Part shown: piece by piece, positions 1,222 through 57,212 of the stretch
Position numbering within the stretch: position 1 is the stretch's first letter
Layout of the letters: each line of letters opens with the position of its first letter
Source: Snodgrassella alvi
Lineage (GTDB): Bacteria; Pseudomonadota; Gammaproteobacteria; Burkholderiales; Neisseriaceae
Reading direction: 5' to 3'
DNA length: 64,000 nt
NCBI RefSeq assembly: GCF_002777825.1
Contig: NZ_MEIR01000082.1
Location: 62,001-126,000, forward strand
Program-made: the position numbers and the translations under genes
Notes under the pieces: generated by a model
What the model saw: the letters and a program-made list of their open reading frames with translations, nothing else
What the model was told of the DNA's origin: nothing
Database searches by the model: none

Positions 1222-1805
1222 AAACAGATAAATCCGTTAATTATGTTCATTAGAAAAATACTGCCGGTGGCTACTGCTTATTTGCCTGCCGTCGAAAAAT
1301 TGACAAAAGACACGTGTATAAGTTAACGCAAATAGCATCCAGCCTGATTAATGACCGGCAAAATACCACAGCTGCTCGCCATACCAGAGCAGATTAACAA
1401 ACATTTTGCCAGCAGCCGCATTTTCATTAGCCTAATAAATAATCTCTAACATTTAATTCAATTCGAGCAAAATAATCAGGCTATGCAACTAAAATCGGCA
1501 GCACTCGTTTACCACCAGACTTTATCTGTTTTATTTATTGCTGAATTTTGCGTCCAACAACCAATTATTCAGTTAGCCAATATACAAAAACTGTACTTTT
1601 CCAATGGAAAAATACAGTTTACAACCATGCTCATTTGTAAATCAGTCTGCTAAATACCAGACAAAAAGCATAATATCATTGATATATTTTTACCTAGGTT
1701 AAACAGCGTAACTAGCTAAAATAGCACATTTACGACAGATACAGGCTACAATAATTACCACAATCAGCAGATATTAACAGCCTTTTCGGAAGCTACATCA
1801 GAAAG
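1222..1805. other. Intergenic region, 584 bp, with one hairpin
   Basis: No convincing reading frame on either strand. The only clear structure is an imperfect inverted repeat at 1588-1620: 15-nt arms with one mismatch around a 3-nt loop. It lacks a uridine run and is too far from dck and panB to be assigned as a terminator for either. Confidence 0.5.
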
Positions 1806-2438
1806 TTATTCGCTCAAATTCAGATAGTTGCGACTACCTTTCATATTGGCAATGGTATTGAGCAACAGCTCAAAATGGTCGTCATTACCCAGAAAATCCA
1901 GCTCATTGGTATTAGCAATTAACAAAGGCGCGTGCTGGTATAAATGAAAAAAACGACGATATTCTGCATGAATCTGTTGTAAATAACCCGCAGGAAACAG
2001 GTTTATCATCCCATCCTCACGCTGATGCAGACGCCTGTCCAGTAAATCATCATCTGCTTCCAGATAAATCACCAGATCGGGTACTGGAAATTTCGGCATC
2101 ACTTTCTGTTTGATTTGCCAGTACAGAGTCTGTTCACCTTCACGCAAAATTACCGGTACATATATCTGGTCTTTTTCTAGCAGAAAATCAGCAATAATCC
2201 GTGAACGCCGCTCATCCTCAGCATAAATCACATTGATTGCCTCACAACGACGCATCAGAAAATGCATCTCGGTGGCCAAGCCATGATTAGTGGCATTCAA
2301 ATAAAATTTTTCCAGAAATGGATTGCTTTCCGGTATTTCCGATAACAGTAAGGCATCGAAATACTGCGCCAGACGACGGCTTAAAGCTGATTTACCACTG
2401 CCTATAGACCCTTCTACGACAATGTAGCGATAATCCAT
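1806..2438 (-). CDS. Deoxynucleoside kinase (dCK/dGK family)
   Basis: A P-loop kinase that phosphorylates deoxynucleosides for salvage. The P-loop GSIGSGKS is at residues 10-17 of the chosen start, a LLSEIPESNPF substrate-site segment follows, and the LDRRLHQRED lid with its arginines is near residue 140. The 210-residue size fits the family. The ORF could begin 11 codons upstream, but GGAGGA lies 4 nt before the ATG at 2438, overlapping the folK stop codon, so that is the start used. It follows folK with a gap of 13 nt, in an apparent pcnB-folK-dck operon. The exact nucleoside preference cannot be read from sequence. Confidence 0.85.
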   Translation of the reverse strand: MDYRYIVVEGSIGSGKSALSRRLAQYFDALLLSEIPESNPFLEKFYLNATNHGLATEMHFLMRRCEAINVIYAEDERRSRIIADFLLEKDQIYVPVILREGEQTLYWQIKQKVMPKFPVPDLVIYLEADDDLLDRRLHQREDGMINLFPAGYLQQIHAEYRRFFHLYQHAPLLIANTNELDFLGNDDHFELLLNTIANMKGSRNYLNLSE

Positions 2439-2451
2439 ATTTTCCTCCGCC

Positions 2452-2958
2452 CTAGTCCTGACCGTCTGCAATAATCGTCACCGCATCCGGCTGTGCCTTC
2501 AATAATTTTGCAGCCAGAGTTGAGGCACTTCCGTGTGTACCGATTACATAACACGATGCAATGGCAGCAAGCGGAACCATCACAAAGGCACGCTCATGCG
2601 CACGCGGATGAGGCAGAACCAAATCAGCATCATTAAAAATCTGATGATGATAATCAATCAGATCCAAATCAATTACACGCGGTCCATTAGGGATATCGCG
2701 CACCCGACCCTGCTGCTCTTCCAGTTTTAGCAGGGTGTGTAACAGCTCCGATGCACTCAGCGAGGTATGAACCAATACCACCGCGTTAACAAAATCAGGC
2801 TGGTTAGTCAGCCCTACCGGCTTAGTAGTGTAAAGTGGTGAAATTGCCTTAACTCGAATTCCTTTAGTCTGATTTAAAGCAGCCATGGCTGCTTCAACCT
2901 GCTGGCGCGGATTTTCCAGATTAGCCCCTAAAGCAATAACCGCTGTTACTGTATTCAT
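2452..2958 (-). CDS. folK: 2-amino-4-hydroxy-6-hydroxymethyldihydropteridine diphosphokinase
   Basis: HPPK transfers pyrophosphate from ATP to 6-hydroxymethyl-dihydropterin in folate synthesis. The 168-residue protein shows the family landmarks in order: VIALGANLENP at residues 7-17, SPLYTTKPVG at about 40-49, QPDFVNAVV, and the catalytic metal-binding GPRVIDLDLIDY near 92-103, followed by LPHPRAHERAFV. The start codon overlaps the pcnB stop as ATGA, with GGGAGG a few bases upstream inside pcnB, so the two genes are translationally coupled. It is followed closely by dck. Confidence 0.95.
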   Translation of the reverse strand: MNTVTAVIALGANLENPRQQVEAAMAALNQTKGIRVKAISPLYTTKPVGLTNQPDFVNAVVLVHTSLSASELLHTLLKLEEQQGRVRDIPNGPRVIDLDLIDYHHQIFNDADLVLPHPRAHERAFVMVPLAAIASCYVIGTHGSASTLAAKLLKAQPDAVTIIADGQD

Positions 2959-4289
2959 GCTTCCTCCCGCTTGGATTGCTTAGTTCGTTTGTTACGATAT
3001 CGTTTTTGTCTTATTGATGTTTTTTCCATTTGCATGGCAGTATCGATCAACTGCTCACGTTCCGTATCCGAGCCATGCTGAAAAGCCTGCCACCATTGAA
3101 CAACTTCTTGTGGCACTTCTCCCAGATTTGCACGCAGACACATAAAATCAAAAGCGGCGCGAAAACGCGGCTGGCCAAGTAAACGATAAGGCCGTGCCCC
3201 ACGCATAATTTCAAATTGAGGTTGTAAAGACCAGATTTCACGCATAGTAATACTATACCGCTGCGGCACACCCCAGCGTTTGTCCACATACTGACGCTCC
3301 GAAGCGATTGCCGCATTCATAGCCGCATTGGTACGCATGCCAGCAGCCTGTTCGCGCTGCCATGCATCTCTGATGTGCGGCCATAATACAGCAGCGAGTA
3401 CAAAACCCATCGAAACCGATTTATCTGCCCGCAGACGTTCATCCGTATTATGCAGAGCCAGTGCAACAATATTATCATTACTTTCACCGCCCGGCATCAG
3501 TGCATCCAGCAATGGATGGACATTTTTCAGCCCAAGTACAGCCATCTGGTGCAGGCATGCTTGCGCATTGCCACTGAATAAAATCTTCAGCACTTCGTCA
3601 AATAGCCGGGCTGGCGGTTCACGCTGTAGTAACTGCGCACATTCAGCAATCGGCTTAGACGTATGTTTATCCACAGTAAAATCAAGTTTGCCTGATAGTC
3701 GAGCCGCACGCAACATTCGTACCGGGTCTTCCTGATAGCGTTCCAGTGGATTGCCGATCATCACCAGACGCCGGTTATGGATATCTTCAACGCCATGATG
3801 GAAGTCCAGAATAACCTGACGTTTCGGATCATAGTACAAAGCATTGGCGGTAAAATCGCGGCGCATTGCATCTTGCTCAAGGGTGCCGAAACTGGCATCT
3901 TTCATAATCCGACCCAGCTCATTGTGGCTATTGACGACTCCACCCCGGAAAGTTGTTACCTCAATCGTTTCCGGGCCCACCATAACATGTACAATCGGAA
4001 AACGCCGGCCAATAATGCGGCTACGCCTGAACAGCTTACGTACCTGCTCAGGCGTGGCATTAGTCGCCACATCAAAATCTTTAGGTGTCACACCAAGCAA
4101 CAAATCACGCACAGCCCCGCCCACCACATAGGCCTGATATCCTTCTTTCTGCAAGCGGGAAATTACTTTCTCCGCAGCAAAACTAAGTTCATCTGCCTGA
4201 ATATGATGTTGTGCCAATGGTATTTCCCGTTTTCTGCCGCCACGGGCAGTCTTTCGCGGCAAAACCCTGTGTAACCACTTTGTTAGCAT
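2955..4289 (-). CDS. pcnB: Poly(A) polymerase I
   Basis: PcnB adds 3' poly(A) tails that speed RNA decay. The protein begins with a basic segment (RKTARGGRKRE), then the class II nucleotidyltransferase core: YVVGGAVRDLLLG near residues 54-66 and the carboxylate motif KDFDVATNATPEQV shortly after. GRRFPIVHV and the RNA-binding block EDPVRMLRAARLS follow. The C-terminal tail is lysine/arginine-rich (KRYRNKRTKQSKREEA), typical of PcnB and not of CCA-adding enzymes. At 444 residues it is of normal length. No Shine-Dalgarno sequence is obvious before the ATG. First gene of the pcnB-folK-dck operon. Confidence 0.93.
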   Translation of the reverse strand: MLTKWLHRVLPRKTARGGRKREIPLAQHHIQADELSFAAEKVISRLQKEGYQAYVVGGAVRDLLLGVTPKDFDVATNATPEQVRKLFRRSRIIGRRFPIVHVMVGPETIEVTTFRGGVVNSHNELGRIMKDASFGTLEQDAMRRDFTANALYYDPKRQVILDFHHGVEDIHNRRLVMIGNPLERYQEDPVRMLRAARLSGKLDFTVDKHTSKPIAECAQLLQREPPARLFDEVLKILFSGNAQACLHQMAVLGLKNVHPLLDALMPGGESNDNIVALALHNTDERLRADKSVSMGFVLAAVLWPHIRDAWQREQAAGMRTNAAMNAAIASERQYVDKRWGVPQRYSITMREIWSLQPQFEIMRGARPYRLLGQPRFRAAFDFMCLRANLGEVPQEVVQWWQAFQHGSDTEREQLIDTAMQMEKTSIRQKRYRNKRTKQSKREEA

Positions 4290-43458: not shown

Positions 43459-44062
43459 ATTTAAAAACGGCGACGGCATCACCACCATTGAAGACCATAA
43501 TGGATTGTCTTATATTAAGGATGATCAGATAAAGTCGCTTACTTTCAGTGCTTATAAAGACGGAATAGTGATTAAAAACGGGATTAAAGGCAATATTATT
43601 TATCTGCTTGGCTATAATTTGAAAAACCGGGGCAAAAATTCTGATTTAGACAATATTATATTTACCAAAGATGATAAGCATGGGCAAACTTTATTAAGCC
43701 TGATTACAAAGCGAAAACCTGCTGATATGCCCCTTATTCCGCAGTTTGAAATAGATTCGGCTATCAATAATCACCTGCTCAGCTCTGCTGACAATAGTCT
43801 GCTTGATGATTCAGGCAATTATACCGCAGGCCTTGCCAGAATTCCTGTAAAGAATGCCCCGCCGGATAACCATACCAATAAAATTCTCAACTCCGGTTTT
43901 AATTACGCTGATGCGATGTTACTCAAGCAGGCAATGGCGTCTATGAGTTCAGGACTTGTTAATAGCAGCATGGCAATACACCGCCACAGGATAAACTTTC
44001 AGGTACTGCTGATAATTATTTGTGTGTTTCGGCTGTATAAAAGCAAGTTTCTGTTCTGTTAA
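43459..44062 (+). pseudogene. C-terminal fragment of a large secreted protein, FrpC/RTX-like
   Basis: From the IS481 end onward one frame reads KNGDGITTIEDHNGLSYIKD, a D/N-G-D-G calcium-loop-like opening, then GNIIYLLGYNLKNRGKNSDL and DNIIFTKDDKHGQ, similar in style to the inter-repeat segments of FrpC-type proteins. The frame has no start codon of its own before 43505. Near 43980 a shift appears: the alternative frame would end PPPQDKLSGTADNYLCVSAV, a more natural C-terminus. So this is the 3' remnant of a gene whose 5' part was lost, perhaps the same gene as the 42783 fragment. Function not determinable. Confidence 0.55.
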
Positions 44063-44073
44063 TTTGAATTTAT

Positions 44074-44102
44074 GCCTGTAACAACAGTTACAGGCTTTTT
44101 TT
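44074..44102 (+). terminator. Rho-independent terminator after the secreted-protein remnant
   Basis: Perfect 9-bp stem GCCTGTAAC/GTTACAGGC, loop AACA, then seven T; 12 nt after the pseudogene end. Confidence 0.9.
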
Positions 44103-44211
44103 ATGTACAAATATTGGCATCTGTTATCGATTACAGTAATCAGGATGTATAATATTTACTTGATGAAACAGCAAATATTAAATTATTAATTTATTTATGG
44201 AGAAATAACCC

Positions 44212-45054
44212 ATGTGCCAGTTGTTAGGCATGGATTGCAATACGCCCACTGATATTGTGTTTTCTTTTGAAGGTTTTCGTTTGCGTGGTGGGTTAACAGA
44301 TTATCACGCTGATGGCTTCGGTATTGCTTTTTTTGAAGGCCATGGCGTACGCCTGCTTCAGGATGACAAGCCCTGTGCCAGCTCACCGGTGGCTGATTTG
44401 GTGCAGCAGTATAAAATTAAGTCGGAAAATGTGATTGCACATATACGCAAGGCTACGCAGGGGCAGGTGCATCTGGTGAATACGCACCCGTTTGTACGCG
44501 AATTATGGGGAGAATACTGGGTATTCGCACATAATGGTAATCTGCGCCATTTTGCGCCAGCCAGAGGAGAATATTTTAATCCGGTAGGTTCTACCGATTC
44601 TGAACAAGCATTCTGCTATCTGCTTGAGCAGCTACGCCAACGTTTTCGCCACAAGCCCGCACGCGAGGTTTTATTTCATACAGTAGCAGAAATCACTGCT
44701 GAACTGCGCCAATACGGGCTGTTTAATTATATGCTCTCCAATGGCGACTGGTTAATAGCCCATGCCAGTACCCTGCTTTTTTATATTATCCGGCAGGCAC
44801 CTTTTGGCAAGGCCATTCTGGCTGATGAAGATGTGGCCATTGATTTTTCCGCTGTAACCACGCCGTACGATCGTGTGGCGGTAATTGCCACCCTGCCCCT
44901 TACCTGTAATGAGCAATGGCAGCAACTGGCCATTAATGAGCTGGTGATGTTTAGTCAGGGAGAAATTGTTTTGCGTGATTGTATTCAGCCGCCGCAATAT
45001 ATGGATGTAGAAGAAGGGCTGGCCATTGCACGTAAAGCGGGGGTAAGTATGTAA
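44212..45054 (+). CDS. Class II glutamine amidotransferase, YafJ type
   Basis: A 280-residue Ntn-hydrolase of the YafJ/GATase-II group. After removal of Met1 the nucleophile is Cys2 in MCQLLGMDCNTPTDIVFSFE. YHADGFGIAFFEG, AHIRKATQGQVHLVNTHPFV and WVFAHNGNLRHF are the glutamine-binding blocks, and STDSEQAFCYLLEQL follows. No synthase domain is fused, so it may be a stand-alone glutaminase or an accessory to an unknown ligase. GGAG lies upstream. It stands alone between the pseudogene area and the sodium symporter gene. Confidence 0.88.
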   Translation: MCQLLGMDCNTPTDIVFSFEGFRLRGGLTDYHADGFGIAFFEGHGVRLLQDDKPCASSPVADLVQQYKIKSENVIAHIRKATQGQVHLVNTHPFVRELWGEYWVFAHNGNLRHFAPARGEYFNPVGSTDSEQAFCYLLEQLRQRFRHKPAREVLFHTVAEITAELRQYGLFNYMLSNGDWLIAHASTLLFYIIRQAPFGKAILADEDVAIDFSAVTTPYDRVAVIATLPLTCNEQWQQLAINELVMFSQGEIVLRDCIQPPQYMDVEEGLAIARKAGVSM

Positions 45055-45575
45055 TGGCTGATTGAAACAGATGATTTATTTATCTGGTACATGGGAAAAT
45101 TTTAGTCTGCGGGTTGATTGCTGTAAACACAATATCGCTGGTTTTTATTATTGGCCAGATAATAGCATGCATTTATACAGCATAGTATTAGCTGTTTATT
45201 TTGTTGATTTATGTGCCTCTGTAGCCGGTAAATGCACTCTACTTTTAATTTAATCTTACCAGCTAATCAACATCGGGATATTTGTATGCATAAACAGACT
45301 GTGTAATAACAAACTGAAATGGCTTTCTCTGTCTAATAAACTAATTTACGTGCTATACCAACGAATCAATACAAATTTAATATTGAAGCATTCGCTGCTT
45401 TGAATTGGTATTTATTGACAACTTATTATTTTTACAGAAGTATTGGTTTATTCTACTGTGTAGATGCAGGTTTTTATACGCTATAAATAAAGCCATTAAC
45501 ACATAAGCTTCTGTATGTTCAGGAGTCTATGTGTTAATGGCATAAGTCTTGATTACAATATTAACGGTATCGGAA
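45055..45575. other. Intergenic region, 521 bp
   Basis: Between convergent genes. One 63-codon frame at 45062 (TTG start) has no family resemblance and is not called. The right end holds the terminator at 45492-45541. Confidence 0.45.
45492..45541 (-). terminator. Terminator of the sodium symporter gene
   Basis: Perfect 14-bp stem (GCCATTAACACATA and complement) around a 22-nt loop, followed on the minus strand by TTTATTTATAG, 35 nt after the stop. Confidence 0.75.
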
Positions 45576-46937
45576 TTACATAAAACCGTATATCAGGATA
45601 GCAATTACCGCCACAGGGATAACAATCCGGCACAAGAACTTCCAGCCAGCAAATATTGCCGGGCTTAAATTCAGTTCCTGCCGAATGGTTTCCTGCTTCA
45701 TCAGCCAGCCCGCAAAAATAATGGTACCCAGACCGGTTAACGGCAGCATAAGTTTACTGGTAACGTAATCCAGAAAATCAAAAATATTTTTTCCAAATAT
45801 GGTGACATCCTGCCATGCATTAAAGGACAACAGACAGGCAATACCCAATGCCCAGATAACCACGCTGCTTGCTAATGTAGCTGATTTACGGCCTAAATGG
45901 GTTTTCTCTTCCAGCAGTTCTACTGTTGGTTCCAGTAATGAAATAGAGGAAGTGAGTGCAGCAAAGGTAAGGAAGATAAAGAACAGTACACCAATGATAG
46001 TACCGCCAGCCATATTACCAAAAGCAATCGGCAAGGTAACGAAAATCAGGCCGGGGCCTTCCGCCGGTTGCAGGCCGTTAGCAAATACCAATGGAAAAAT
46101 AGCCATACCGGATAATACGGCCACGATTACGTCCAGAATCACAACGGTACGGGCAGTGGAAATCAGATTAACATCTTTGCCCAGATAAGAGCCATAGGCC
46201 ATCATAATGCCCATACCCAGAGACAGACTGAAAAACGCATGTCCCAATGCTGCCAATACTGCCTTACCAGTAATGGCAGACCAGTCTGGGGTAAACAGGA
46301 ACGCAAATGCCTTGCCAAATGACGGGCCACTGACAACGCCAGCATAAATCACCAGTCCAATCAGCAAAACACCCAGCCCCGGCATCATGATTTTGCATGA
46401 GCGCTCCAAGCCAGCACCTACACCCATGGCTACAATTAAGCCAGTAGCCAACATAAACACCGTATGCCAAGTAAGCAAATGGTTTACACTGCCAAGAAAC
46501 TGCTCAAAAACCTGGCTGGTGCCATCACCATGCAGCCCTTTAAAAGTACCATTGGCGGCAAGAAAAATGTAATCAGTCGCCCAGCCACCTATCACACTGT
46601 AAAAAGACAATATCAGGAATGAACCAAGTACACCAATAATGCCTACCCAGCGCCATGATTTAGACCGTCCTTCAGCAGCAGCCACATCTTCCATGGTGTG
46701 AATCGGGTTTTTCTGTCCGCGACGGCCAATCAACCATTCAGCTACCAGAATCGGCAACCCAATTATAAACATACAAATCAGATAGGTAAGCACAAAGGCA
46801 GAACCACCCATCTGACCGGCCATATAAGGAAATTTCCAGATATTACCCAAACCTACCGCTGAACCTGCTGCGGCAAGCATAAATCCCATCCGCGAGCTCC
46901 ACTGTGAATGCGATTTTTTCTTTGTTCCGCCACTCAT
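45576..46937 (-). CDS. Sodium-dependent transporter, NSS (SNF) family
   Basis: A 453-residue symporter of the neurotransmitter:sodium symporter family with about eleven or twelve membrane helices. The first helix reads MGFMLAAAGSAVGLGNIWKF then PYMAGQMGG, with the unwound GxGN sodium/substrate site. SFYSVIGGWATDYI and FFSLSLGMGIMMAYGSYLG are further family blocks. Bacterial members carry amino acids such as tryptophan, tyrosine, leucine or methionine; the substrate here is open. It has no operon partner; a terminator follows. Confidence 0.9.
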   Translation of the reverse strand: MSGGTKKKSHSQWSSRMGFMLAAAGSAVGLGNIWKFPYMAGQMGGSAFVLTYLICMFIIGLPILVAEWLIGRRGQKNPIHTMEDVAAAEGRSKSWRWVGIIGVLGSFLILSFYSVIGGWATDYIFLAANGTFKGLHGDGTSQVFEQFLGSVNHLLTWHTVFMLATGLIVAMGVGAGLERSCKIMMPGLGVLLIGLVIYAGVVSGPSFGKAFAFLFTPDWSAITGKAVLAALGHAFFSLSLGMGIMMAYGSYLGKDVNLISTARTVVILDVIVAVLSGMAIFPLVFANGLQPAEGPGLIFVTLPIAFGNMAGGTIIGVLFFIFLTFAALTSSISLLEPTVELLEEKTHLGRKSATLASSVVIWALGIACLLSFNAWQDVTIFGKNIFDFLDYVTSKLMLPLTGLGTIIFAGWLMKQETIRQELNLSPAIFAGWKFLCRIVIPVAVIAILIYGFM

Positions 46938-47163
46938 AATTGCCCTTTACTTCCTGATTCAAAATTCATAAAAAAATTCAACATTTAACTATATAATGTA
47001 AATTTAATCAGTAATCATGCCATGAATCGCTTTTTTGGACAAGAATTGATTGCTAATGCACCCTATTTCTGAGTATAAAATCTATTATTTAGACATTATG
47101 TCTAAAAATATGCGTTTGTATTTCTGCATTTCACCGCCCACAGAGACAAACAACAATCGATGA

Positions 47164-47967
47164 TTACAGTAAACGATGTTGTAGTGCTGGTAGCTTTGCG
47201 CGTACCGATTGCAGAAACTCAGCATTCAGCTCAGCACAAATCACGCCCTCACCTTCAGGTAATGAAGCCAGAACCTCACCCCACGGATTAATAATCAGGC
47301 TGTGGCCATAGGTACGACGGCCATTCTGATGCTGCCCGCCCTGTGCTGAAGCCAGTACATAGCACTGATTTTCAATTGCTCGGGCGGTTAATAGTGTATG
47401 CCAGTGTGCCTTACCAGTGGTATAGGTAAAGGCTGCCGGTAAAACCAGCACATCAAATGGGAGCTGGGCGCGGAAGAATTCAGGAAAACGCAAATCGTAA
47501 CAAATACCCTGTGCTACCGCGATATTATCAACTTTCAGCTCTGGTACATCCATTCCCCGCAGTATGGTATCGGCTTCAGCATAGTATTCATTAGCACCAC
47601 TGTAACCAAACAAATGCATTTTGTGATAGAAACCTAGCAGCTCACCGGCACGCCCATATACCAGCATAGTATTAAGCACTTTGGTTTTGTCTGTACTTTG
47701 TAAAGGTATGGTACCTCCAAACAGCACAATACCCAACTCAGCCGCCAGTGTTTTTAAAGCAGTTTGCAGTGCGCCATCGCCAAATGTCTCTGCCACAGCT
47801 ACTTTATCGGTATCATCCTTTCCCATTATTGGCCAGTATTCGGGTAATACCACCCATTCTGCTCCTGCTGCGGCAGCCTGCCGCACTAATCGTTGCATAG
47901 ACCGGATATTTTCAGCAACGTCAGTACCTGAAACCATTTGTACAATGCCAACATTGATATTGTTCAT
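47164..47967 (-). CDS. Carbon-nitrogen hydrolase, Nit1/YbeM-like (deaminated glutathione amidase type)
   Basis: A 267-residue nitrilase-superfamily amidase. The Glu-Lys-Cys triad is visible: Glu43 in VVLPEYWP, Lys in GFYHKMHLFGY near residue 115 and Cys in GICYDLRFPEFFR near 153, with TYGHSLIINPWGEVLA near the end. The FY-K-HLF and NEYY pattern is that of the Nit1 group, which repairs deaminated glutathione; a general omega-amidase activity is the alternative. It is monocistronic. A 226-nt gap separates it from the NSS gene downstream on the same strand. Confidence 0.88.
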   Translation of the reverse strand: MNNINVGIVQMVSGTDVAENIRSMQRLVRQAAAAGAEWVVLPEYWPIMGKDDTDKVAVAETFGDGALQTALKTLAAELGIVLFGGTIPLQSTDKTKVLNTMLVYGRAGELLGFYHKMHLFGYSGANEYYAEADTILRGMDVPELKVDNIAVAQGICYDLRFPEFFRAQLPFDVLVLPAAFTYTTGKAHWHTLLTARAIENQCYVLASAQGGQHQNGRRTYGHSLIINPWGEVLASLPEGEGVICAELNAEFLQSVRAKLPALQHRLL

Positions 47968-48397
47968 GTATTGCTCCTTAAATACTCAAAAAACTTATGC
48001 CATAACTGTAGCCGTAAGATTATTTATAGCCTTAACTGGATTAAGACGCAAATAAATCAATATTTATTGTGATAATGCAGGTAGTTACTGTGATGGTAAA
48101 GCATTTATTGAAAAAATGTTACTTTAATTTCTACTAATACATTAATATTACTTAATATATTTATACTAATATAAATATATTTTGACTTTGATATAAGGCT
48201 ATTACTAGAATGATCATGAAGTTGAACAGAAGTTAATATTTAGCTGCTGCAACAGTATAAGAGGAGGAATAGACAATAATACAAACCAAACCACTACTTT
48301 TAAATAATACCACCTGATTAGCTGATGATTCAGCTATATAAATAATTACAGCAGAATTAAGTATCAATTTTTTCGGATTTACTCAGGAACAATCATA
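47968..48397. other. Intergenic region upstream of the Gabija-like operon, 430 bp
   Basis: AT-rich, between divergent genes, with both promoters presumably inside. No ORF, tRNA or attachment-like repeat is seen that would explain how the defence operon entered. Confidence 0.4.
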
Positions 48398-50686
48398 ATG
48401 TATCTACAAAGCTTCACAATTAAAAATTTCCGCAAGTTCGGGGAACATGACAATGAAGTCATGTTTGTGAATTCTAAAGAAATATGCCATAACAATTCAG
48501 GACACGATATCCCACCACTGGTGTCACCCTCAAGTACGCTGATTATTGGCAAAAACAATACCGGCAAAACAACGATTACTCATGCTTTAACGATGCTTAC
48601 TAACAATAAATTATCGATTAAATCCAGTGATTTTAATTTGAGTTATCTGAATAATTTAATAGATACTTATATAGCAGCCTATCAAAATAAAGACGAAAGC
48701 CCTCAACCCAATTTAAAAACGCCTTTAGAAACGCCGAAATTAGAATTTGAGTTAAAAATAAAATTAGATCATCCAGACGATGAATATATCCATAATTTAT
48801 CTCAATTTATGCTGATTGGGAATAATTATAAGGAAGCAATCATTATTAAAGCTATTTACGAGGTGAAAGAAGAGGCTAATTTTTTTGCTGCGGTTAAAAC
48901 CTTGGTTCAGCGAAAGCGGCAGGAACCATCTGACAAGACTTCTGAAACGCCTAATGATGAAAAAGTAGATAAAAGAACGCTGCTGGAAGAAATCCTTAAA
49001 TTGCTGGATGATAAAAATCAAACGGAATTTAAGTTAAGCTATAAAAATAAAATGGATCAGGAAGTAAAAAATTTTTCTTTAGATAAACTGATGGAAATCA
49101 ATTGTATTAAGGCTAATCGCCATCTGAATAAAAATGTTTTAACCGGTGTATTCAAGCGCATTGTTATCTCTTTATTCAGCGATGAAGAAAGTGATGGTTT
49201 GTTTAATCAGGAGCTGAAAGATATTAATGACATTATCACGGAAAAAGTAGAGCAAAAAAATAAATCGATTAGTGAGATACTAAGAGAAATTGAACAATTA
49301 AATCACATTGATATGAAACTAAGTGGTAATGTTACTAAAGACGATATTTTAGATAATCTGATTAAGTACAGCTTTAGTGATGGCGATAGCTATATACCGG
49401 AAGATCAGTTTGGTCTGGGCTATATCAATTTGGTTAATATTATTGGTGAAATCATTGACTATATTAATTCCTATGAAGAGAACAGCCATCGCAGCCGCAT
49501 AAATCTGCTACTGATTGAAGAGCCCGAAGCTTTTATGCATCCACAAATGCAAGAATTTTTTATTAAACGCATTGATCTAGCGGTGAATAAAGCAATAAAA
49601 CAGAAGAGCGCAAACGAAAATCTGGAAAATCTGGCAACTCAGTCACTCAAATGCCAGATTGTGATCACTACCCATTCTTCGCATATTGTCAACAGTAAAA
49701 TTCATAGCAGTAATTCATTCGATAATATCAATTATTTAACAACAGAAAACCGATGCAGCAAGGTGATACCGTTATATGATAAATTATTAACAGAAAGCTC
49801 TCAGCCATCCAACTCAAAATCTTCTAAAAAATCAGATGCTAAATCAGACTCAAACAATAGTTCATTAGATTATAAATTAGATTCTAATGATCTGCTGTTT
49901 CTGAAAAAACACATTAAATACAAAGTATCGGAATTGTTTTTTTCAGATGCAGTCATTTTAGTGGAAGGTACAACTGAGGAAATGTTATTAAATTATTTTC
50001 TTGAAAATGATAAAGATTTAAAGAAATATTATATTTCCATATTCATAATTGGTGGTGCCCATGGTAAAGTATACCTGCCTTTAGTGCAACAATTAAAGAT
50101 ACCTTGCTTGATAATTACTGATATAGATATCAAGCGGTATGACTGCGAGAAAAATAAAACATGTAAAAACTCAAAATGCCCAACATGCCAAGGTCAGATA
50201 TCTGAACCTCAGGGATTTAAACAAATTACGTGTTTAAATAACAGAGAAACTACTAATGAAACCCTAAAATATTTATTCGGAAATAATATTCTAAAAAATA
50301 ATATGCAATATATAGAAAAAGATAATATATATACTGTATTTCAAAAAGACCAAATTAAGGGGCAATATGCCACTAGTCTGGAAGAAGCAATTATTTTAAC
50401 TAACTATAAAAATGACATGCTTATCAAATCATTAACAAAAGTATTATCAGATCCGCCCCAATATTTTATTGATGATCAAAATAATAAAATTAATTATGAA
50501 TCCTCTTATGAAATTCAGCGGAAGCTTAGCTCCAAAGGAAACAAAGCTAAATTTGCCAGCACACTACTCTATAACACGATAATTTCAGACGCAGAATCAC
50601 CATGTATTTGGCTACCTAATTATATTCGTCATGGATTGAAGTGGTTAAAAAACCAACTGGATAATCATTATGGAGAAAAAAAATGA
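48398..50686 (+). CDS. OLD-family ATP-dependent nuclease (GajA-like)
   Basis: A 762-residue protein with an ABC-type ATPase and a C-terminal TOPRIM domain. Walker A GKNNTGKT is at residues 51-58, Walker B LLLIEEPEAFMHPQ near 369 and the switch ITTHSSHIV near 424; a lysine/acid-rich insert lies between A and B. TOPRIM follows: VILVEGTTEEMLL near 519 (acidic E) and LIITDIDIKRYD near 571 (DxD). Straight after DxD comes C-x5-C-x4-C-x2-C, probably a zinc knuckle. OLD nucleases with an adjacent UvrD-like helicase form the Gabija anti-phage system. This protein is longer than the roughly 580-residue prototype. Its stop overlaps the helicase start by 4 nt. AGGA lies upstream. Confidence 0.85.
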   Translation: MYLQSFTIKNFRKFGEHDNEVMFVNSKEICHNNSGHDIPPLVSPSSTLIIGKNNTGKTTITHALTMLTNNKLSIKSSDFNLSYLNNLIDTYIAAYQNKDESPQPNLKTPLETPKLEFELKIKLDHPDDEYIHNLSQFMLIGNNYKEAIIIKAIYEVKEEANFFAAVKTLVQRKRQEPSDKTSETPNDEKVDKRTLLEEILKLLDDKNQTEFKLSYKNKMDQEVKNFSLDKLMEINCIKANRHLNKNVLTGVFKRIVISLFSDEESDGLFNQELKDINDIITEKVEQKNKSISEILREIEQLNHIDMKLSGNVTKDDILDNLIKYSFSDGDSYIPEDQFGLGYINLVNIIGEIIDYINSYEENSHRSRINLLLIEEPEAFMHPQMQEFFIKRIDLAVNKAIKQKSANENLENLATQSLKCQIVITTHSSHIVNSKIHSSNSFDNINYLTTENRCSKVIPLYDKLLTESSQPSNSKSSKKSDAKSDSNNSSLDYKLDSNDLLFLKKHIKYKVSELFFSDAVILVEGTTEEMLLNYFLENDKDLKKYYISIFIIGGAHGKVYLPLVQQLKIPCLIITDIDIKRYDCEKNKTCKNSKCPTCQGQISEPQGFKQITCLNNRETTNETLKYLFGNNILKNNMQYIEKDNIYTVFQKDQIKGQYATSLEEAIILTNYKNDMLIKSLTKVLSDPPQYFIDDQNNKINYESSYEIQRKLSSKGNKAKFASTLLYNTIISDAESPCIWLPNYIRHGLKWLKNQLDNHYGEKK

Positions 50687-52917
50687 GTCTGCAAGAGAAT
50701 ATACGCAATGAAGAGCAACAACTAAAGAAAATATTCACAGCTATTGACGGTGGCAAAAGCTTTATTGTTCACGCCGGAGCAGGTGCAGGTAAAACCTACA
50801 CACTGATTGAATCAATTAAGTATATTTTAAGTCATAAATTAAATACTTTACGCAAACACAATCAAAAAATCATCTGTATTACTTATACCAATGTAGCCGT
50901 TGATGAAATCCGGCACCGGCTGGGCGAAAGCCAGTTTGTGCAGGTGTCAACCATTCATGAGATGCTATGGCAACAAATTAAATTGTATCAACAATATGAA
51001 TTGGTTAAACTACATAAAAACAAACTTGAAAAGGAAATAGAAAATACTAAGTTGGAAATAACAGAGCTAGCTAAAGATGCTGCTAATCTGGCTGATCTCA
51101 ATACTGAGAAAAATAAACCATTATTCAGGCAGTTTGTACAAGATAACAAAGAAAATTTTTTTAAACTAGAAAATGAAAAAGCTAAAGCAGATAAATTTAG
51201 AACAAGAATGTTTGAATTAGCTCAACCGGATGATTTGAAAAACGCTTTAGATAATGCTCTAAAAAATGTTAGCAATTTTAAAAAAATTTTTAAGCTTACT
51301 AGCCGGCTGAACAGCTATACACAAGCCTTAGAAAAAATAAATCATCCAGAAGAGCATAAGAGAATATCGATAGAATATGACAGTAATTCTAATTCTGATC
51401 GTCTGGCCTCAATGAAATTCAGCCACGATACATTGCTCGAATACAGCCTGCAATTAGTTAAACAATATAATGTGTTCAGAAAACTGCTCACTGACCAATA
51501 TCCTTATATTTTTATTGATGAATATCAGGACACTAATGAATCTGTTATCAGGTTGATGGCTTATTTACAGCAATACGCCCATCCGGAACGATGGCTGGTA
51601 GGGTATTTCGGTGATAGTAAACAAAATATTTATGATAGTGGTGTGGGTAATCATATTGAGGATATTTATCGGGAAATATCGGCCGAAGGTAAGGGGGAAA
51701 TTAAGCTGGAAAAGATTGTTAAAGATTTTAACCGGCGCTCACAGATACAAATTATTAATCTGATTAATAAAATCAGAAATGATGAATTGACGCAAAAACC
51801 AATTGATCCAGATAGGACAAATGGAAAAGTTGAATTTTACTGCCTTAAAGCAAGAGCTGCTGAAAGAGATAAGGATAAAGCGATAATTGATCAGTTTATT
51901 GCACATCTTGTTCCATCGCTACCGAGTAATGAGCAAATCAATTGTTTGCTATTGCTTAATCGTTCTGTGGCCAGTATGAGTGGATTTGAACAACTTTATA
52001 ACGCAATTGGAAAAGCAAAATTTATCCAATGGGATAACCTTAATTCCATGCTGCTTTCACGTATACTTAATAAATTGCATCCCGCAGTCCTGCGCCTGTA
52101 TCAATTGGTCACAGCCTATAATAGTTTAAATAATCCGCACACTACTCTGTATGATTTATTCGGCAATACTCAACGTAGCGTTACTTTTGCTGAGGCAGGT
52201 AAACTGGTGCAAATCCTTAAAAAACAGCAACCACCTGCTACTTTAAATGAATTTATTCAGAATATTTCAACCGGCTTAAATCAATTAGCTAAGAAAAAAC
52301 ATAAAAGTGAAAATGACGCAATTAAATTCTGGCTGAAAAACTGCTTTGGGATTAATTATCCTAAGGATATAAAGCAAAATAATGCAGGTTTAGCAAACTT
52401 ATCTTTTGCTGATTATTATATTAATTTTCTGCTGTATGAAGAAATGTATGGAAGCATTAATCATGCAGAAACCGAAGTTGAAGAAACAGATGATGTGGTT
52501 GCCATTAATCAGCAACATATCAGCGACATTCTGGATATTGATTTAAGCCAATGGCTAAGCTGGGTAGCTTTTATTAATGATGAACATGATAAACAGCAAC
52601 AAGTGTTATACCATACCTATCACGGCACCAAAGGCGAAGAATATGACAATGTAGTAATAATAATGGAAAATGATTTTGGCAAAAATAAAAAAAATAAATT
52701 TAACAATTACTTTTCCAGCCTGTCTGCTGATGAGAACATTCAGGTTAGAGATGAGGAGGACAAAGAGCTGGAAAATACACGCAATCTATTCTATACAGCC
52801 TGTTCACGAGCACGTAAAAATTTATGGATTCTTTATCTAGATGATATTACTAAAATCAGAGATAAGATTAAATTGCTGTTTGGTACGGTTAAAACATTTG
52901 AACCTGCCATAGAATAA
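50683..52917 (+). CDS. UvrD/Rep-like superfamily 1 helicase (GajB-like)
   Basis: A 744-residue SF1A helicase. Motif I GAGAGKT is at residues 32-38, motif Ia ICITYTNVAVDEIRHR near 66, motif II FIDEYQDTNE near 277, motif III GYFGDSKQNIY near 307, motif V TYHGTKGEEYDNVVII near 645 and motif VI YTACSRARKNLWIL near 704. A lysine-rich probably coiled-coil insert occupies about 105-240. It overlaps GajA as ATGA with GGAG just upstream. In Gabija the helicase works with the nuclease to recognise and cut invading DNA; prototype GajB is about 500 residues, so this is a longer form. Base composition is lower in GC than in the neighbouring housekeeping genes. Confidence 0.85.
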   Translation: MSLQENIRNEEQQLKKIFTAIDGGKSFIVHAGAGAGKTYTLIESIKYILSHKLNTLRKHNQKIICITYTNVAVDEIRHRLGESQFVQVSTIHEMLWQQIKLYQQYELVKLHKNKLEKEIENTKLEITELAKDAANLADLNTEKNKPLFRQFVQDNKENFFKLENEKAKADKFRTRMFELAQPDDLKNALDNALKNVSNFKKIFKLTSRLNSYTQALEKINHPEEHKRISIEYDSNSNSDRLASMKFSHDTLLEYSLQLVKQYNVFRKLLTDQYPYIFIDEYQDTNESVIRLMAYLQQYAHPERWLVGYFGDSKQNIYDSGVGNHIEDIYREISAEGKGEIKLEKIVKDFNRRSQIQIINLINKIRNDELTQKPIDPDRTNGKVEFYCLKARAAERDKDKAIIDQFIAHLVPSLPSNEQINCLLLLNRSVASMSGFEQLYNAIGKAKFIQWDNLNSMLLSRILNKLHPAVLRLYQLVTAYNSLNNPHTTLYDLFGNTQRSVTFAEAGKLVQILKKQQPPATLNEFIQNISTGLNQLAKKKHKSENDAIKFWLKNCFGINYPKDIKQNNAGLANLSFADYYINFLLYEEMYGSINHAETEVEETDDVVAINQQHISDILDIDLSQWLSWVAFINDEHDKQQQVLYHTYHGTKGEEYDNVVIIMENDFGKNKKNKFNNYFSSLSADENIQVRDEEDKELENTRNLFYTACSRARKNLWILYLDDITKIRDKIKLLFGTVKTFEPAIE

Positions 52918-53079
52918 CCAATTTTTTCATATAACTTTAATTATATTAAGATATTTGACTAAATATAGAATGGATTTTTGTTGCATCTTTAATGTGGATT
53001 AAGGCAAAGATTGCAGTTTAGATTGAGGTGAGTAATTCAATATAATAATTTATTGATACTAAATATCAGTTGCAGAGAA

Positions 53080-53121
53080 ATTCTGGATATTGTGCTTAAT
53101 TGAAAAGCTGATATCCAGAAT
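53080..53121. terminator. Hairpin between the helicase gene and zur
   Basis: Perfect 11-bp arms ATTCTGGATAT/ATATCCAGAAT around a 20-nt loop, between convergent genes. U tracts are weak on both sides, so it is a possible shared terminator. Confidence 0.5.
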
Positions 53122-53145
53122 CATTCTTTAAACTAATCAAATATT

Positions 53146-53646
53146 TTACGACAGACGCTGCTGGCATTGCTGGCAGATGCCGGTAAGTACGATATGTTCA
53201 TCATTGAGCATAAAGCCGTTATCGGCCGCGCGCCGGCGCAATGCTGCCCATTCAGAGCTCAGGCTTTGTTCATCTACGGCGCCACACTGGTTACACACCA
53301 GTACAAAATCGCTGTGATGTATATTGTCTTCCTGACAATGGCTGTCACATTCATGCTGTACGTGACGGCAGAGTATATAGCCGTTAACAGCCGGTATTTT
53401 ATGCAATACGCCCTGCTCTGCCCAAAAATCCAGTGCCCGATAGGCGGTGGGCGGGGCAACGGTGTTGCTGCTGTGCTGCTGCATATGTGCCAGTACCTGA
53501 TAGGCTTTAATTACGCCGTCCATGTTCAATACAATATCCAGTACCTGAGCACGTAGCTGGGTAACGGTAACGCCCTGTTCTGCGCACTGTGCCATGATAC
53601 GTGCTTTATCTTCGGCTTTGGATTGCCATGCTAGATTGCTACTCAT
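53146..53646 (-). CDS. zur: Fur-family regulator, Zur-like
   Basis: A 166-residue ferric-uptake-regulator family protein. The winged helix region reads VTQLRAQVLDIVLNM then NTVAPPTAYRALDFWAEQGV, with the PPTAYRALDFW recognition helix characteristic of Zur. Histidine/cysteine-rich sensor sequence HVQHECDSHCQEDNIHH and the structural zinc pairs CNQC and CQQC follow. It is probably the zinc-responsive repressor of zinc uptake; no znu gene is in view. It lies 11 nt after the SDR gene, probably in one transcript. Confidence 0.85.
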   Translation of the reverse strand: MSSNLAWQSKAEDKARIMAQCAEQGVTVTQLRAQVLDIVLNMDGVIKAYQVLAHMQQHSSNTVAPPTAYRALDFWAEQGVLHKIPAVNGYILCRHVQHECDSHCQEDNIHHSDFVLVCNQCGAVDEQSLSSEWAALRRRAADNGFMLNDEHIVLTGICQQCQQRLS

Positions 53647-53657
53647 GCCTGCCAGCC

Positions 53658-54410
53658 TTATGCCAGATCACGGGTGACACTCAGACCGGCAAAGGTTTGT
53701 GATACTGGCATGATTTCGATGTTGTTGACATTCATATGGGCAGGGGTTTGATAGAGCCATAACACGGTATTGGCGATATCTGCCGGTTGCAGATAGCTGA
53801 TATTTTCATACACGGCTGCGGCCTGTTTGTCGTCTCCGCGAAAGCGCACATTGGAAAATTCAGTATCACCACACAGGCCGGGAGCAATATTGGTGACACG
53901 AATACGGGTGCCGGCCAGATCGGTACGTAAATTCAGGCTAAACTGGCGTACAAAGGCTTTGGTGGCGCCATATACATTGCCACCTTTATACGGCCATGCG
54001 CCGGCAGTGGAGCCCAGATTAATGATATAACCGGCATTTTTGGCTATCATGCGCGGCAGTATCTGCCGTGTTACATAGGTTAAGCCAAGGATATTGGTGT
54101 GAATCATGGTTTCCCAATCGGCATAGTTTGCCTCCTGAGCTGGCTCCATGCCCAGCGCCAGCCCGGCATTATTCACCAGTAAGTCAATATCCGCCCAAGT
54201 ACCCTGTAAAGAAGCCAAGGCGCTATCGACACTGCTTTTATCGGCCACATCCATTTGTAACGGTAAAAAGGCTGCGCCCAGCTCAGCCTGTAAATGGTGC
54301 AGCTTATCCAGCCGTCGTGCTGCGCCGATTACTTTATAGCCGGCATGAACCAGTACTCGACACATTTCTGCACCAAAACCGGCAGAAGCGCCTGTAATCA
54401 ATATTGCCAT
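53658..54410 (-). CDS. SDR-family oxidoreductase, YdfG-like
   Basis: A 250-residue classical short-chain dehydrogenase. The Rossmann motif ITGASAGFGAEM is at the N-terminus, AARRLDKL supplies the NADP-preferring arginines, NNAGLALG is near residue 85, and the catalytic Ser, Tyr and Lys are in NLGSTAGAWPYKGGNVYGATKAF. The IAPGLCGDTEFSNVRFRGDD segment is typical of YdfG, which acts on 3-hydroxy acids such as serine or hydroxypropionate. The ATG three codons upstream touches AAGG, while the ATG at 54410 has AAGGA 8 nt before it, so this start is used. zur follows. Confidence 0.85.
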   Translation of the reverse strand: MAILITGASAGFGAEMCRVLVHAGYKVIGAARRLDKLHHLQAELGAAFLPLQMDVADKSSVDSALASLQGTWADIDLLVNNAGLALGMEPAQEANYADWETMIHTNILGLTYVTRQILPRMIAKNAGYIINLGSTAGAWPYKGGNVYGATKAFVRQFSLNLRTDLAGTRIRVTNIAPGLCGDTEFSNVRFRGDDKQAAAVYENISYLQPADIANTVLWLYQTPAHMNVNNIEIMPVSQTFAGLSVTRDLA

Positions 54411-54530
54411 ATTCAGCATCCTTCTGTGTTATTTGCCAGATTATGTTTGTCTTCCAGCTACTAATCTTAGCACGTTCCGGCAGATTTTCTATTAAAGTAA
54501 GTAGCTAGTTTAACCAGCTATATAATATAA

Positions 54531-54552
54531 ACCCCGTTGATGCTAACGGGGT
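54531..54552 (-). terminator. Terminator of pbpG
   Basis: Eight-bp stem ACCCCGTT/AACGGGGT with a 6-nt loop, then a T-rich stretch on the minus strand, 20 nt past the stop. Confidence 0.75.
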
Positions 54553-54572
54553 GGCTAATTACAGACCAGTAC

Positions 54573-55523
54573 TTACAGAGATTGCTGCATGGCCCATGAG
54601 CGCAGTGCGCGGGCATCACTAACCCGGGTTGTGGAACTGGGGGAATTCAGCAGGACAATGGTAACCGGCTGATTCTGTACGCTGGTCAGTAAAACCATGG
54701 AGCGGCCTGCTTCACGGATATAACCGGTTTTTTGCAAGGCAATTGGCCATGCGCCTTCGCGTACCAGTGCATTGGAATTGCGATACTGTTCTATACGGCC
54801 ATTACTGGTATATACCGAACCAGAATTATCGGTGGAATACTGTCTGATAAGCGGATACTGGCTGGCACCGCGTACCAGTAAGGCCAGATCACGTGCTGTA
54901 GCCTGATTACGCGGATCCAGCCCAGTTGGCTCGTAAAAGCGTGCATTGGTCATACCCAGTTCGGCCACCTTGCGATTCATGGCATCTACAAATGCGGGCA
55001 TCCCCCCCGGATAGGTACGTGCCAAGGCGTGGATTGCTCTGTTTTCACTACTCATTAAACCGATATGCAACAATTCACGCCGGGTCATTACGGTGCCAAC
55101 CGACAGGCGGCTGGTTGAGTTTTTCAGCCGGTCAATTTCCGCATCGGTGATAGTAATGAGTTCATTCATATTCTGGTTGGCATCCAGCACTACCATTGCT
55201 GAAACCAGCTTGGAAATGGATGCAATAGAACGTACCTGATTGATGTTTTTCTGGTACAGAATTTCGCCGGTTTGATTGTTCATAATCAGTGCGGATTGCG
55301 AGCTTAATAAAGGGCCGGCAATCTGGGCACGGGTTTCCAGATTAGCATCTGGGTGATTGGTGATAAATGAGCTGAGGGTATCAGGCTGACTATCCACCTG
55401 CTTTTGTTCGATAAATTTACCGAGGACGTCCAAATCGTTAGCAAAAGTAGGTACTGCAAAAAACAGGGTACTACTTAACAGGCTTACCCACTGCCAGCGA
55501 CGCAGACAAGATAAACGTGACAT
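54573..55523 (-). CDS. pbpG: D-alanyl-D-alanine endopeptidase (PBP7-like)
   Basis: A 316-residue periplasmic low-molecular-weight penicillin-binding protein. A signal peptide (WQWVSLLSSTLFFAVPTFAN) precedes the serine peptidase S11 domain. The three active-site motifs are SxxK as SISK near residue 103, SxN as SEN near 158 and KTG in LQKTGYIREAG near 261. S11 enzymes of this length without the C-terminal PBP5 domain cleave peptide cross-links. Monocistronic, divergent from clpX across 414 bp. Confidence 0.87.
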   Translation of the reverse strand: MSRLSCLRRWQWVSLLSSTLFFAVPTFANDLDVLGKFIEQKQVDSQPDTLSSFITNHPDANLETRAQIAGPLLSSQSALIMNNQTGEILYQKNINQVRSIASISKLVSAMVVLDANQNMNELITITDAEIDRLKNSTSRLSVGTVMTRRELLHIGLMSSENRAIHALARTYPGGMPAFVDAMNRKVAELGMTNARFYEPTGLDPRNQATARDLALLVRGASQYPLIRQYSTDNSGSVYTSNGRIEQYRNSNALVREGAWPIALQKTGYIREAGRSMVLLTSVQNQPVTIVLLNSPSSTTRVSDARALRSWAMQQSL

Positions 55524-55937
55524 GATAACTTCCTTTTTGCCCTTGATTCAGGGTAATTTAATTCTCAATTAAGATGCTCATACTGAACGTGAGAGAGGAA
55601 CAGATTGTTCTGTTGCCTGTGATTAATAGAAGTTTCAGCGTCCAAATATTCAATACATAAATCTGATTATATTGCCAATTATAAGACAATTTTAATCGTA
55701 ACCGAAACTTTCATCAGTTGTTTAGGTAAATAAAAGCTGTTTATAAACGATATTTTAACTAGATTTTCATTGTTACACCGATTGCTGCAACGGCTAAAAC
55801 TACATTAGCATTCAGTTTGATATCGCGCTAATAACACTATATACTTATTTTTTGGCTGATTTCGGCTATGGTGGTTAACTCTGTATCCGGTCAGGCTCTC
55901 TATATATAAGCTCTATTTTCTTGATGAAATCCTGTTT
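55524..55937. other. Divergent intergenic region pbpG/clpX, 414 bp
   Basis: Contains the promoters of pbpG and clpX. No ORF and no clear sigma-32 element for clpX. clpP is not directly upstream. Confidence 0.45.
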
Positions 55938-57212
55938 ATGAGTAAAGAAATTCGTTATTGTTCGTTTTGCGGGAAACCTGAAAACGATGTTAAAAATTTG
56001 ATTGAGGGTGAAAACGCATTAATCTGTGATGAATGCGTGGATACATGCAATGACATGCTACATAATCCGGGTAGTTCTTCTGAAGAAAAAGCTATGTCGG
56101 CTTCTGCCGGTTCAGATGCTGGTACCAGTCAGGATAAACTGCCTACGCCGGCGGAAATTGTTGCCAATCTTGATCAATATGTGATCGGACAGGAAACAGC
56201 AAAAAAATCGCTGGCTGTAGCGGTATACAATCATTACAAACGCTTGCGTCTGGGCAAGGAAGAAGGTCAGGTAGAGCTGTCCAAATCCAATATTCTGCTG
56301 ATTGGGCCTACTGGTTCGGGCAAAACGCTGCTGGCTCAGACTCTAGCACGCAAACTGGATGTACCGTTTGTAATGGCTGATGCCACTACCCTCACTGAAG
56401 CAGGTTATGTAGGTGAGGATGTGGAACAAATTATTACTAAATTACTGGGCAAATGTGATTTTGATGTACAGAAAGCGCAAAGAGGCATTGTGTACATTGA
56501 TGAAATCGATAAGATTTCCCGCAAGAGCGATAATCCTTCGATTACACGTGATGTTTCGGGCGAAGGTGTGCAACAGGCTTTGCTGAAACTAGTAGAAGGT
56601 ACTGTTGCTTCCGTACCGCCTCAGGGTGGCCGTAAGCATCCTAATCAGGAATTTATTAATGTAGACACCACTAATATTCTGTTTATCTGTGGTGGCGCCT
56701 TTGCCGGTTTGGAAAAAGTTATCCGCCAACGTACTGAAAAAGGTGGTATTGGTTTTGGTGCGGCGGTACATAGTAAAGATGAAAATACCAATATAAGTGA
56801 GCTGTTTCAAACGGTGGAACCGGAAGACCTGATTAAATTCGGTTTGATTCCTGAGCTGATTGGTCGTCTGCCGGTAATTGCCACGTTGACGGAGCTGGAT
56901 GAAGATGCTTTGATTAATATTCTTACTGAACCGAAAAATGCATTAATCAAGCAGTTTCAGGCGCTGTTTGCGATGGAAGGTGTGGAGCTACAGGTGCAGC
57001 CCTCGGCATTGCGCGCTATTGCCAAGCTGGCCATGGCACGTAAAACCGGAGCGCGTGGCTTGCGCTCAATTGTGGAAAAAGCCTTGCTGAATACCATGTA
57101 TGCCTTGCCTGATTTAACTGATGTGAAAAAAGTTGTGGTTAATCAGGATGTGATTGAAAAAGGTGCAGAACCGGAATGGTTACTGGCTGATGGCAGTGCC
57201 TATAAGGGTTAA
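55938..57212 (+). CDS. clpX: ATP-dependent Clp protease ATP-binding subunit ClpX
   Basis: AAA+ unfoldase that feeds substrates to ClpP. The N-terminal zinc-binding domain has Cys8, Cys11, Cys30 and Cys33; the AAA module has Walker A GPTGSGKT near residues 123-130, Walker [10 protein letters not shown] near 185, the pore loop EAGYVGEDV and the ClpP-contacting IGF equivalent within GGIGFGAAV near 270. Length 424 is normal. In many genomes clpP is just upstream; here the upstream neighbour is the divergent pbpG. Confidence 0.97.

Follow-up and report, generated by a model that had tools for sequence, protein, structure and literature searches.

A predicted Gabija anti-phage operon in an exchangeable slot between the nit and zur genes of Snodgrassella alvi

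Introduction

Gabija ranks with the most common anti-phage systems; the signal that it senses is in dispute (PMC12407980). The 64,000-nucleotide stretch of Snodgrassella alvi analysed here (contig NZ_MEIR01000082.1, positions 62,001 to 126,000; hereafter the window) carries a nuclease gene overlapping a helicase-like gene, which an earlier note, made from the sequence alone, had taken for a Gabija-like defence operon with enlarged components. The locus raises the question of whether this pair is a true Gabija system, a repair module or another kind of OLD system, and of how it came to lie where it does. Our results make it highly probable that the two genes form a complete Gabija anti-phage system which, as exchangeable cargo, occupies the place between nit and zur, protection itself being a prediction. 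By kind it appears, with good support, to be an ordinary Gabija from which one structural feature, a predicted zinc loop, stands out. A literature search combining Snodgrassella and Gabija gave no paper.

Identity of the operon

The two genes and the catalytic core of the nuclease are laid out as follows.

48398-50686, plus strand: gajA, class 2 OLD nuclease (ABC ATPase and TOPRIM), 762 aa, from PADLOC PDLC00065 and Pfam
50683-52917, plus strand: gajB, UvrD/Rep-like superfamily 1 helicase-fold protein, 744 aa, from PADLOC PDLC00128, Pfam and fold matches
50683-50686, plus strand: ATGA overlap of the gajA stop and the gajB start
49937-50128, plus strand: GajA TOPRIM core with E523, E527 and D575-x-D577 (Pfam OLD-like_TOPRIM, residues 514-577)

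The OLD/TOPRIM and UvrD-like frames and their 4-nt overlap lie where the earlier note had placed them, and the ATGA suggests translational coupling. The assignment as a Gabija-type pair was borne out by the PADLOC profiles, which fit both proteins nearly end to end: GajA matched PDLC00065 (E 1.5e-195; residues 1-755 on positions 1-668 of 670) and GajB matched PDLC00128 (E 3.2e-242; residues 3-740 on positions 6-683 of 685). PDLC00065 matches 11/14 control genomes at E ≤ 0.001, and weak matches to it carry little meaning. Pfam recognized AAA_15 (113.9 bits, cut-off 32.1) and OLD-like_TOPRIM (67.9 bits, cut-off 23.2) in GajA and UvrD-helicase (E 1.1e-27, above cut-off) in GajB, and all NCBIfam matches of both proteins fell under cut-off. 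The four metal-binding residues E523, E527, D575 and D577 are invariant across the nine rows of alignment A3, and the C-terminal nuclease region of the GajA model matched the class 2 OLD fold with its helical domain. GajB keeps the motifs of the helicase fold. A sequence search of the PDB returned only OLD proteins for GajA and, for GajB, 13 matches made up of UvrD-type helicases and four distinct GajB sequences. Membership in Gabija is thus carried by the end-to-end profiles, the metal-binding residues, the C-terminal nuclease fold and the operon order, and the pairing goes beyond chance because open homologous pairs accompany the near-full-length matches in four other Snodgrassella genomes, in Neptunomonas and on proviral contigs. 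The system of Bacillus cereus VD045 has the same gene pair, TOPRIM metal residues and UvrD-fold partner, and matches in fold. The lineage is already represented in PADLOC, whose existing models cover both proteins almost completely.

A class 2 OLD-helicase pair serving host DNA repair rather than defence would share several of these features. A repair function has been discussed for OLD proteins (PMC8136825), and the GajB model matched UvrD, PcrA, Rep, AddA and RecB best, with GajB structures lower; both points weigh against a defence function. Nevertheless, GajB scored far below the NCBIfam cut-offs for uvrD (56.8 versus 1144 bits), pcrA (55.4 versus 911) and rep (46.9 versus 951), the Gabija profiles fit both proteins from end to end, and the operon, as described below, is patchily distributed, is replaced by a defence candidate in some genomes, has decayed in one and has proviral relatives. 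Neither a profile placement in a repair clade nor a core gene at the same site in every genome was found, and a repair role is very improbable.

The nuclease also resembles the effectors of other OLD systems, and a retron Eco8-like or PARIS-like system would pair it with something other than GajB. Counting against Gabija, the AriA model of PARIS matched GajA residues 1-431 (E 7.2e-33), and Eco8 effector structures tied with GajA structures when the whole GajA model was compared. However, the NCBIfam Eco8 effector model gave 28.7 bits against a cut-off of 250, no Rfam family matched within 44000-57000, and the neighbouring genes encode CN_hydrolase, GajB and FUR-family proteins, with no reverse transcriptase beside the OLD effector. 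For PARIS, the best models of the partner were GajB, and AriB was not among the 25 families listed. Such a system can be set aside almost entirely.

The slot between nit and zur

Fourteen Snodgrassella genomes (G000-G013), one per species and with that of the window counted, were compared at the site defined by these features.

47164-47967, minus strand: carbon-nitrogen hydrolase gene (nit; Pfam CN_hydrolase, E 6.3e-47)
53146-53646, minus strand: FUR-family regulator gene (E 4.9e-07; the label zur is that of the earlier note)
48357-53032, no strand: exchangeable block, outside which the window aligns with G003 and G010, which bear another cassette

A FUR-family gene was found in 14/14 genomes and nit in 13/14, the slot of G004 being beyond assessment as its nit was not found. 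The content in between varies. Intact Gabija occupies the slot in four of the 14 (G000, G002, G009 and G013), and the slot of G008 holds pieces of gajB with stops, a decayed operon whose flanks are 92% identical to those of G013 and from which two large parts are gone. The slots of G003 and G010 contain an FRG protein matching PDC-S15 (E 1.3e-105 and 5.6e-105) together with a helix-turn-helix protein. Other, largely metabolic genes fill the slots of G001 (divided over two contigs), G005, G006 and G007, a cobW-type gene that of G012, and only 60 bp separate nit from zur in G011, where the flanks are merely ~70% alike. None of the 14 genomes offered a close empty site, G011 being too diverged.

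Nucleotide alignment delimits the exchanged block. In blastn comparisons with G003 and G010 the upstream flank aligns up to 48356 (87.6 and 87.4% over ~1.36 kb) and alignment resumes at 53033/53034 (95.2 and 94.3%), so that 48357-53032 is the swapped block. G002 and G009 align without interruption through the operon (93.1 and 95.0%), and the closest named loci are those of S. alvi App4-8, WF3-3 and wkB298 (91, 90 and 57% best-segment identity). Between the window and G002/G009 the synonymous distance is 0.05-0.11 for gajA and gajB and 0.15-0.22 for nit; the lower value fits a recent exchange of the cassette, with the proviso that genes need not share one rate. The GC content in 1-kb windows is 0.30-0.35 within the operon and 0.44-0.50 in the genes on both sides, as the earlier note had observed. 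Its proposal of transfer is likewise sustained, since GC is low, only 4/14 genomes have the operon at the site, others have a different cassette within matching flanks, a remnant or an almost empty site, and some relatives are proviral, all of which points to horizontal acquisition. A repeat search of 48250-53150 for a recombinase or terminal repeats as cassette ends found only short repeats of at most 29 nt. One inverted pair (23 nt, 83%, 48592-48614/53045-53067) was rejected as the ends, being loose and beginning within gajA. The slot, which in related genomes contains Gabija, PDC-S15, a remnant or nothing, is in effect a natural experiment, if a small one, on how defences turn over in a symbiont of the bee gut.

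The cassette could also be decaying or silent in the window strain. The ratio of nonsynonymous to synonymous substitution (dN/dS) to near alleles is 0.47-0.73, the same cassette has decayed in G008, and promoter-like sites at the operon are at chance level (27 found, 28.0 expected); each of these speaks against a working system. On the other hand, both frames are open, the metal-binding residues are kept, and dN/dS measured against G013, whose alleles are more distant, is 0.18 and 0.25, all of which makes inactivity an unlikely explanation. The promoter/terminator scan found no terminator-like site at the operon.

Several observations concern the other occupants of the slot. The FRG genes lie at 1732-3480 and 1690-3438 of their loci (L072 and L073), each with the helix-turn-helix gene adjacent on the opposite strand. 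The slot of G006 (L074, 1133-5596) encodes a major facilitator superfamily efflux protein (Pfam E 2.4e-47), a divergent TetR-like protein and two transposase-like proteins, cargo that we take to resemble tetracycline resistance and IS200/IS605. Genes for a ketoacyl-acyl carrier protein synthase III, a short-chain dehydrogenase/reductase-like protein and others are found in G001, G005 and G007 (L075, L076, L080 and L081), and the cargo common to these three has the look of a small pathway of lipid type. For fatty-acid hydroxylase and desaturase genes, the profile tests covered G006 alone.

Distribution and mobile relatives

Within the family, 6 of 83 genomes matched alignment A1 at E ≤ 1e-15, all of them in the genus Snodgrassella, and looser OLD-type matches occur in other genera (e.g. 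G016, 8.4e-28 with PDLC00065). Counting the genome of the window each time, matches were found in 11/369 genomes of the class (E ≤ 1e-20), 12/399 of the order and 15/398 of the phylum (both E ≤ 1e-12).

Some relatives lie on proviral contigs. The gajA-gajB pair is present on three IMG/VR contigs (L116, L117 and L118), of which L116 and L118 encode CI- and CII-like regulators, L118 has an integrase gene directly upstream of gajA, and L117 has tail genes beside the pair; a fourth contig, L119, was left aside as a weak match (29%, residues 370-592). G005 has a homologous Gabija pair on another contig (L082), away from the slot, where all four phage-like proteins tested matched structural or tail families within a few kb of gajB and two further proteins matched no family. 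Among plasmids, 114 records matched, all below 60% identity and only three of them spanning 80% or more of the query; two phage records matched at ~25% identity.

Two more distant occurrences were noted. In G012 (L083, 2208-6001) a pair of a second, distant Gabija type lies on a 6.6-kb contig with both genes split, through decay or sequencing error, and one genome (G106:C143; L104 and L105) contains two distant GajA-GajB-type pairs ~15 kb apart.

Protein sizes

The earlier note had described both proteins as enlarged, possibly marking a subtype, with a charged insert in each. Relative to B. cereus VD045 both are indeed longer, GajA of that strain having 578 aa (by the truncation stated in PMC8136825) and its GajB chains in the PDB 493-499 aa. 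GajB also exceeds in length each of the 12 distant homologues in the sample, and the stretches separating its helicase core motifs contain more helix than those of its B. cereus counterpart. GajA, however, is of ordinary size: the median over 43 GajA-like frames is 748 aa, in a sample biased by loci found with profiles of the window's own clade, from which L083 (518 aa, split gene) was omitted and in which L026 (truncated by its contig), L114 (whose frame is split) and several frames with over-long starts were included. The PADLOC models, with 670 and 685 positions for the 762 and 744 residues of GajA and GajB, cover both proteins, and the notion of an enlarged subtype is less well supported than the rest, although GajB is long for its sample. 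Of the two inserts, that of GajA is a linker.

49787-49867, plus strand: low-complexity Ser/Lys/Asp linker before TOPRIM, residues ~464-490, variable among strains

This linker is long in 2/7 rows of alignment A1 (the window and G009 only). The surplus of GajB includes a charged helical stretch at ~106-220, which the model predicts to be part of the fold. The earlier note is partly borne out in its charged inserts.

A Cys/His loop beside the nuclease site

The feature that sets GajA apart from the prototype lies just downstream of the catalytic aspartates.

50144-50188, plus strand: predicted zinc knuckle C583-x5-C589-x4-C594-x2-C597, its first Cys six residues past DxD

At the knuckle the GajA model has block means of 82 and 72 for the predicted local distance difference test. 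Loops after DxD were parsed from 44 of 47 loci (L132, L133 and L135, which yielded none, were dropped) and measure 16-67 residues up to the next conserved T/S-N motif; a variable insert region of this kind is also noted in PMC6755086. At least one Cys occurs in 32/44 loops, and the full pattern C-x(3-8)-[CH]-x(2-40)-C-x2-C in eight: the window, G009, G002, G005, Neptunomonas qingdaonensis (L025), Undibacterium jejuense (L026), L116 and L117. In the last four, whose GajA is 47-49% identical to that of the window, the second ligand is His. That of G013 includes three Cys along with two His. In a GajA tree of 22 rows, from which Undibacterium (its GajA cut by the contig end) is absent, the seven full-pattern rows and G013 form one side of a branch with support 99/100; the Cys/His loop is missing from L118 and L148, which are next in relationship. 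As sampled, the complete four-ligand loop is confined to one clade.

The element would be a zinc knuckle on a DNA-contacting loop of GajA. With this predicted knuckle in the loop after DxD, the protein differs from its class 2 OLD counterparts in Burkholderia pseudomallei (BpOLD) and in Xanthomonas campestris (PDB 6nk8 and 6njv-6njx). In BpOLD the basic residues R467 and R468, ten and eleven positions past D457, are implicated in cleavage (PMC6755086), and the lysine-rich knuckle of the window spans positions six to twenty past DxD. A Cys/His knuckle was not seen in the consulted passages of the Gabija literature; in two papers examined for zinc, it appeared in a reference title (PMC8136825) and in connection with retron effectors (PMC10568477).

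These observations invite a tentative proposal, on balance doubtful, of a zinc-knuckle Gabija subtype in which a lysine-rich C-x5-[CH]-x(n)-C-x2-C module sets DNA or site preference and whose GajB, longer and closer to UvrD, might be able to unwind DNA or travel along it, unlike B. cereus GajB, for which no helicase activity was found (PMC10681800). In the boldest form of the same speculation, zinc occupancy gates the nuclease. A zinc-based coupling to the adjacent zur was rejected as the principal explanation; the adjacency is probably a coincidence, because the slot carries unrelated cargo in other genomes, in most of them unconnected with zinc (the cobW-type gene of G012 is the exception), and the Gabija of G005 lies elsewhere.

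Proposed mechanism and significance

Structural and biochemical work on B. cereus describes a 4:4 assembly and its nuclease action (PMC10781630, PMC10822852, PMC8136825, PMC10568477). By analogy with such solved systems, GajA would form a tetramer and GajB would dock on it, making a 4:4 complex; phage DNA would be cut or nicked at the TOPRIM site. The trigger could be nucleotide loss, as in the B. cereus model (PMC10568477), or linear DNA ends lacking RecBCD, as in the Pseudomonas aeruginosa model (PMC12407980). In this clade only, the knuckle past DxD may stiffen a lysine-rich loop that, by residue offset, lies approximately at the basic patch of BpOLD. A clade with a metal-ligand loop at the mouth of the nuclease and a longer GajB could inform both substrate choice and the question of whether the lack of helicase activity reported for B. 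cereus GajB is general.

Minor observations

The GajA of G009 (L085, 1531-3801) is 0.9-1.0 identical to that of the window over most of its length, with a notable stretch at ~631-714, in which residues 673-714 are 0.48 identical to the window and 0.43 to G013; judged from these identities, it is a mosaic allele, perhaps with an unseen donor. Elsewhere in the window, 43505-44062 is a 185-aa frame with a TTG start in low-GC DNA and without a Pfam match. Frames of 1272 aa (L023) and 1149 aa (L024) occupy the same place in other loci, and the 185-aa frame may represent the last part of a larger gene that varies.
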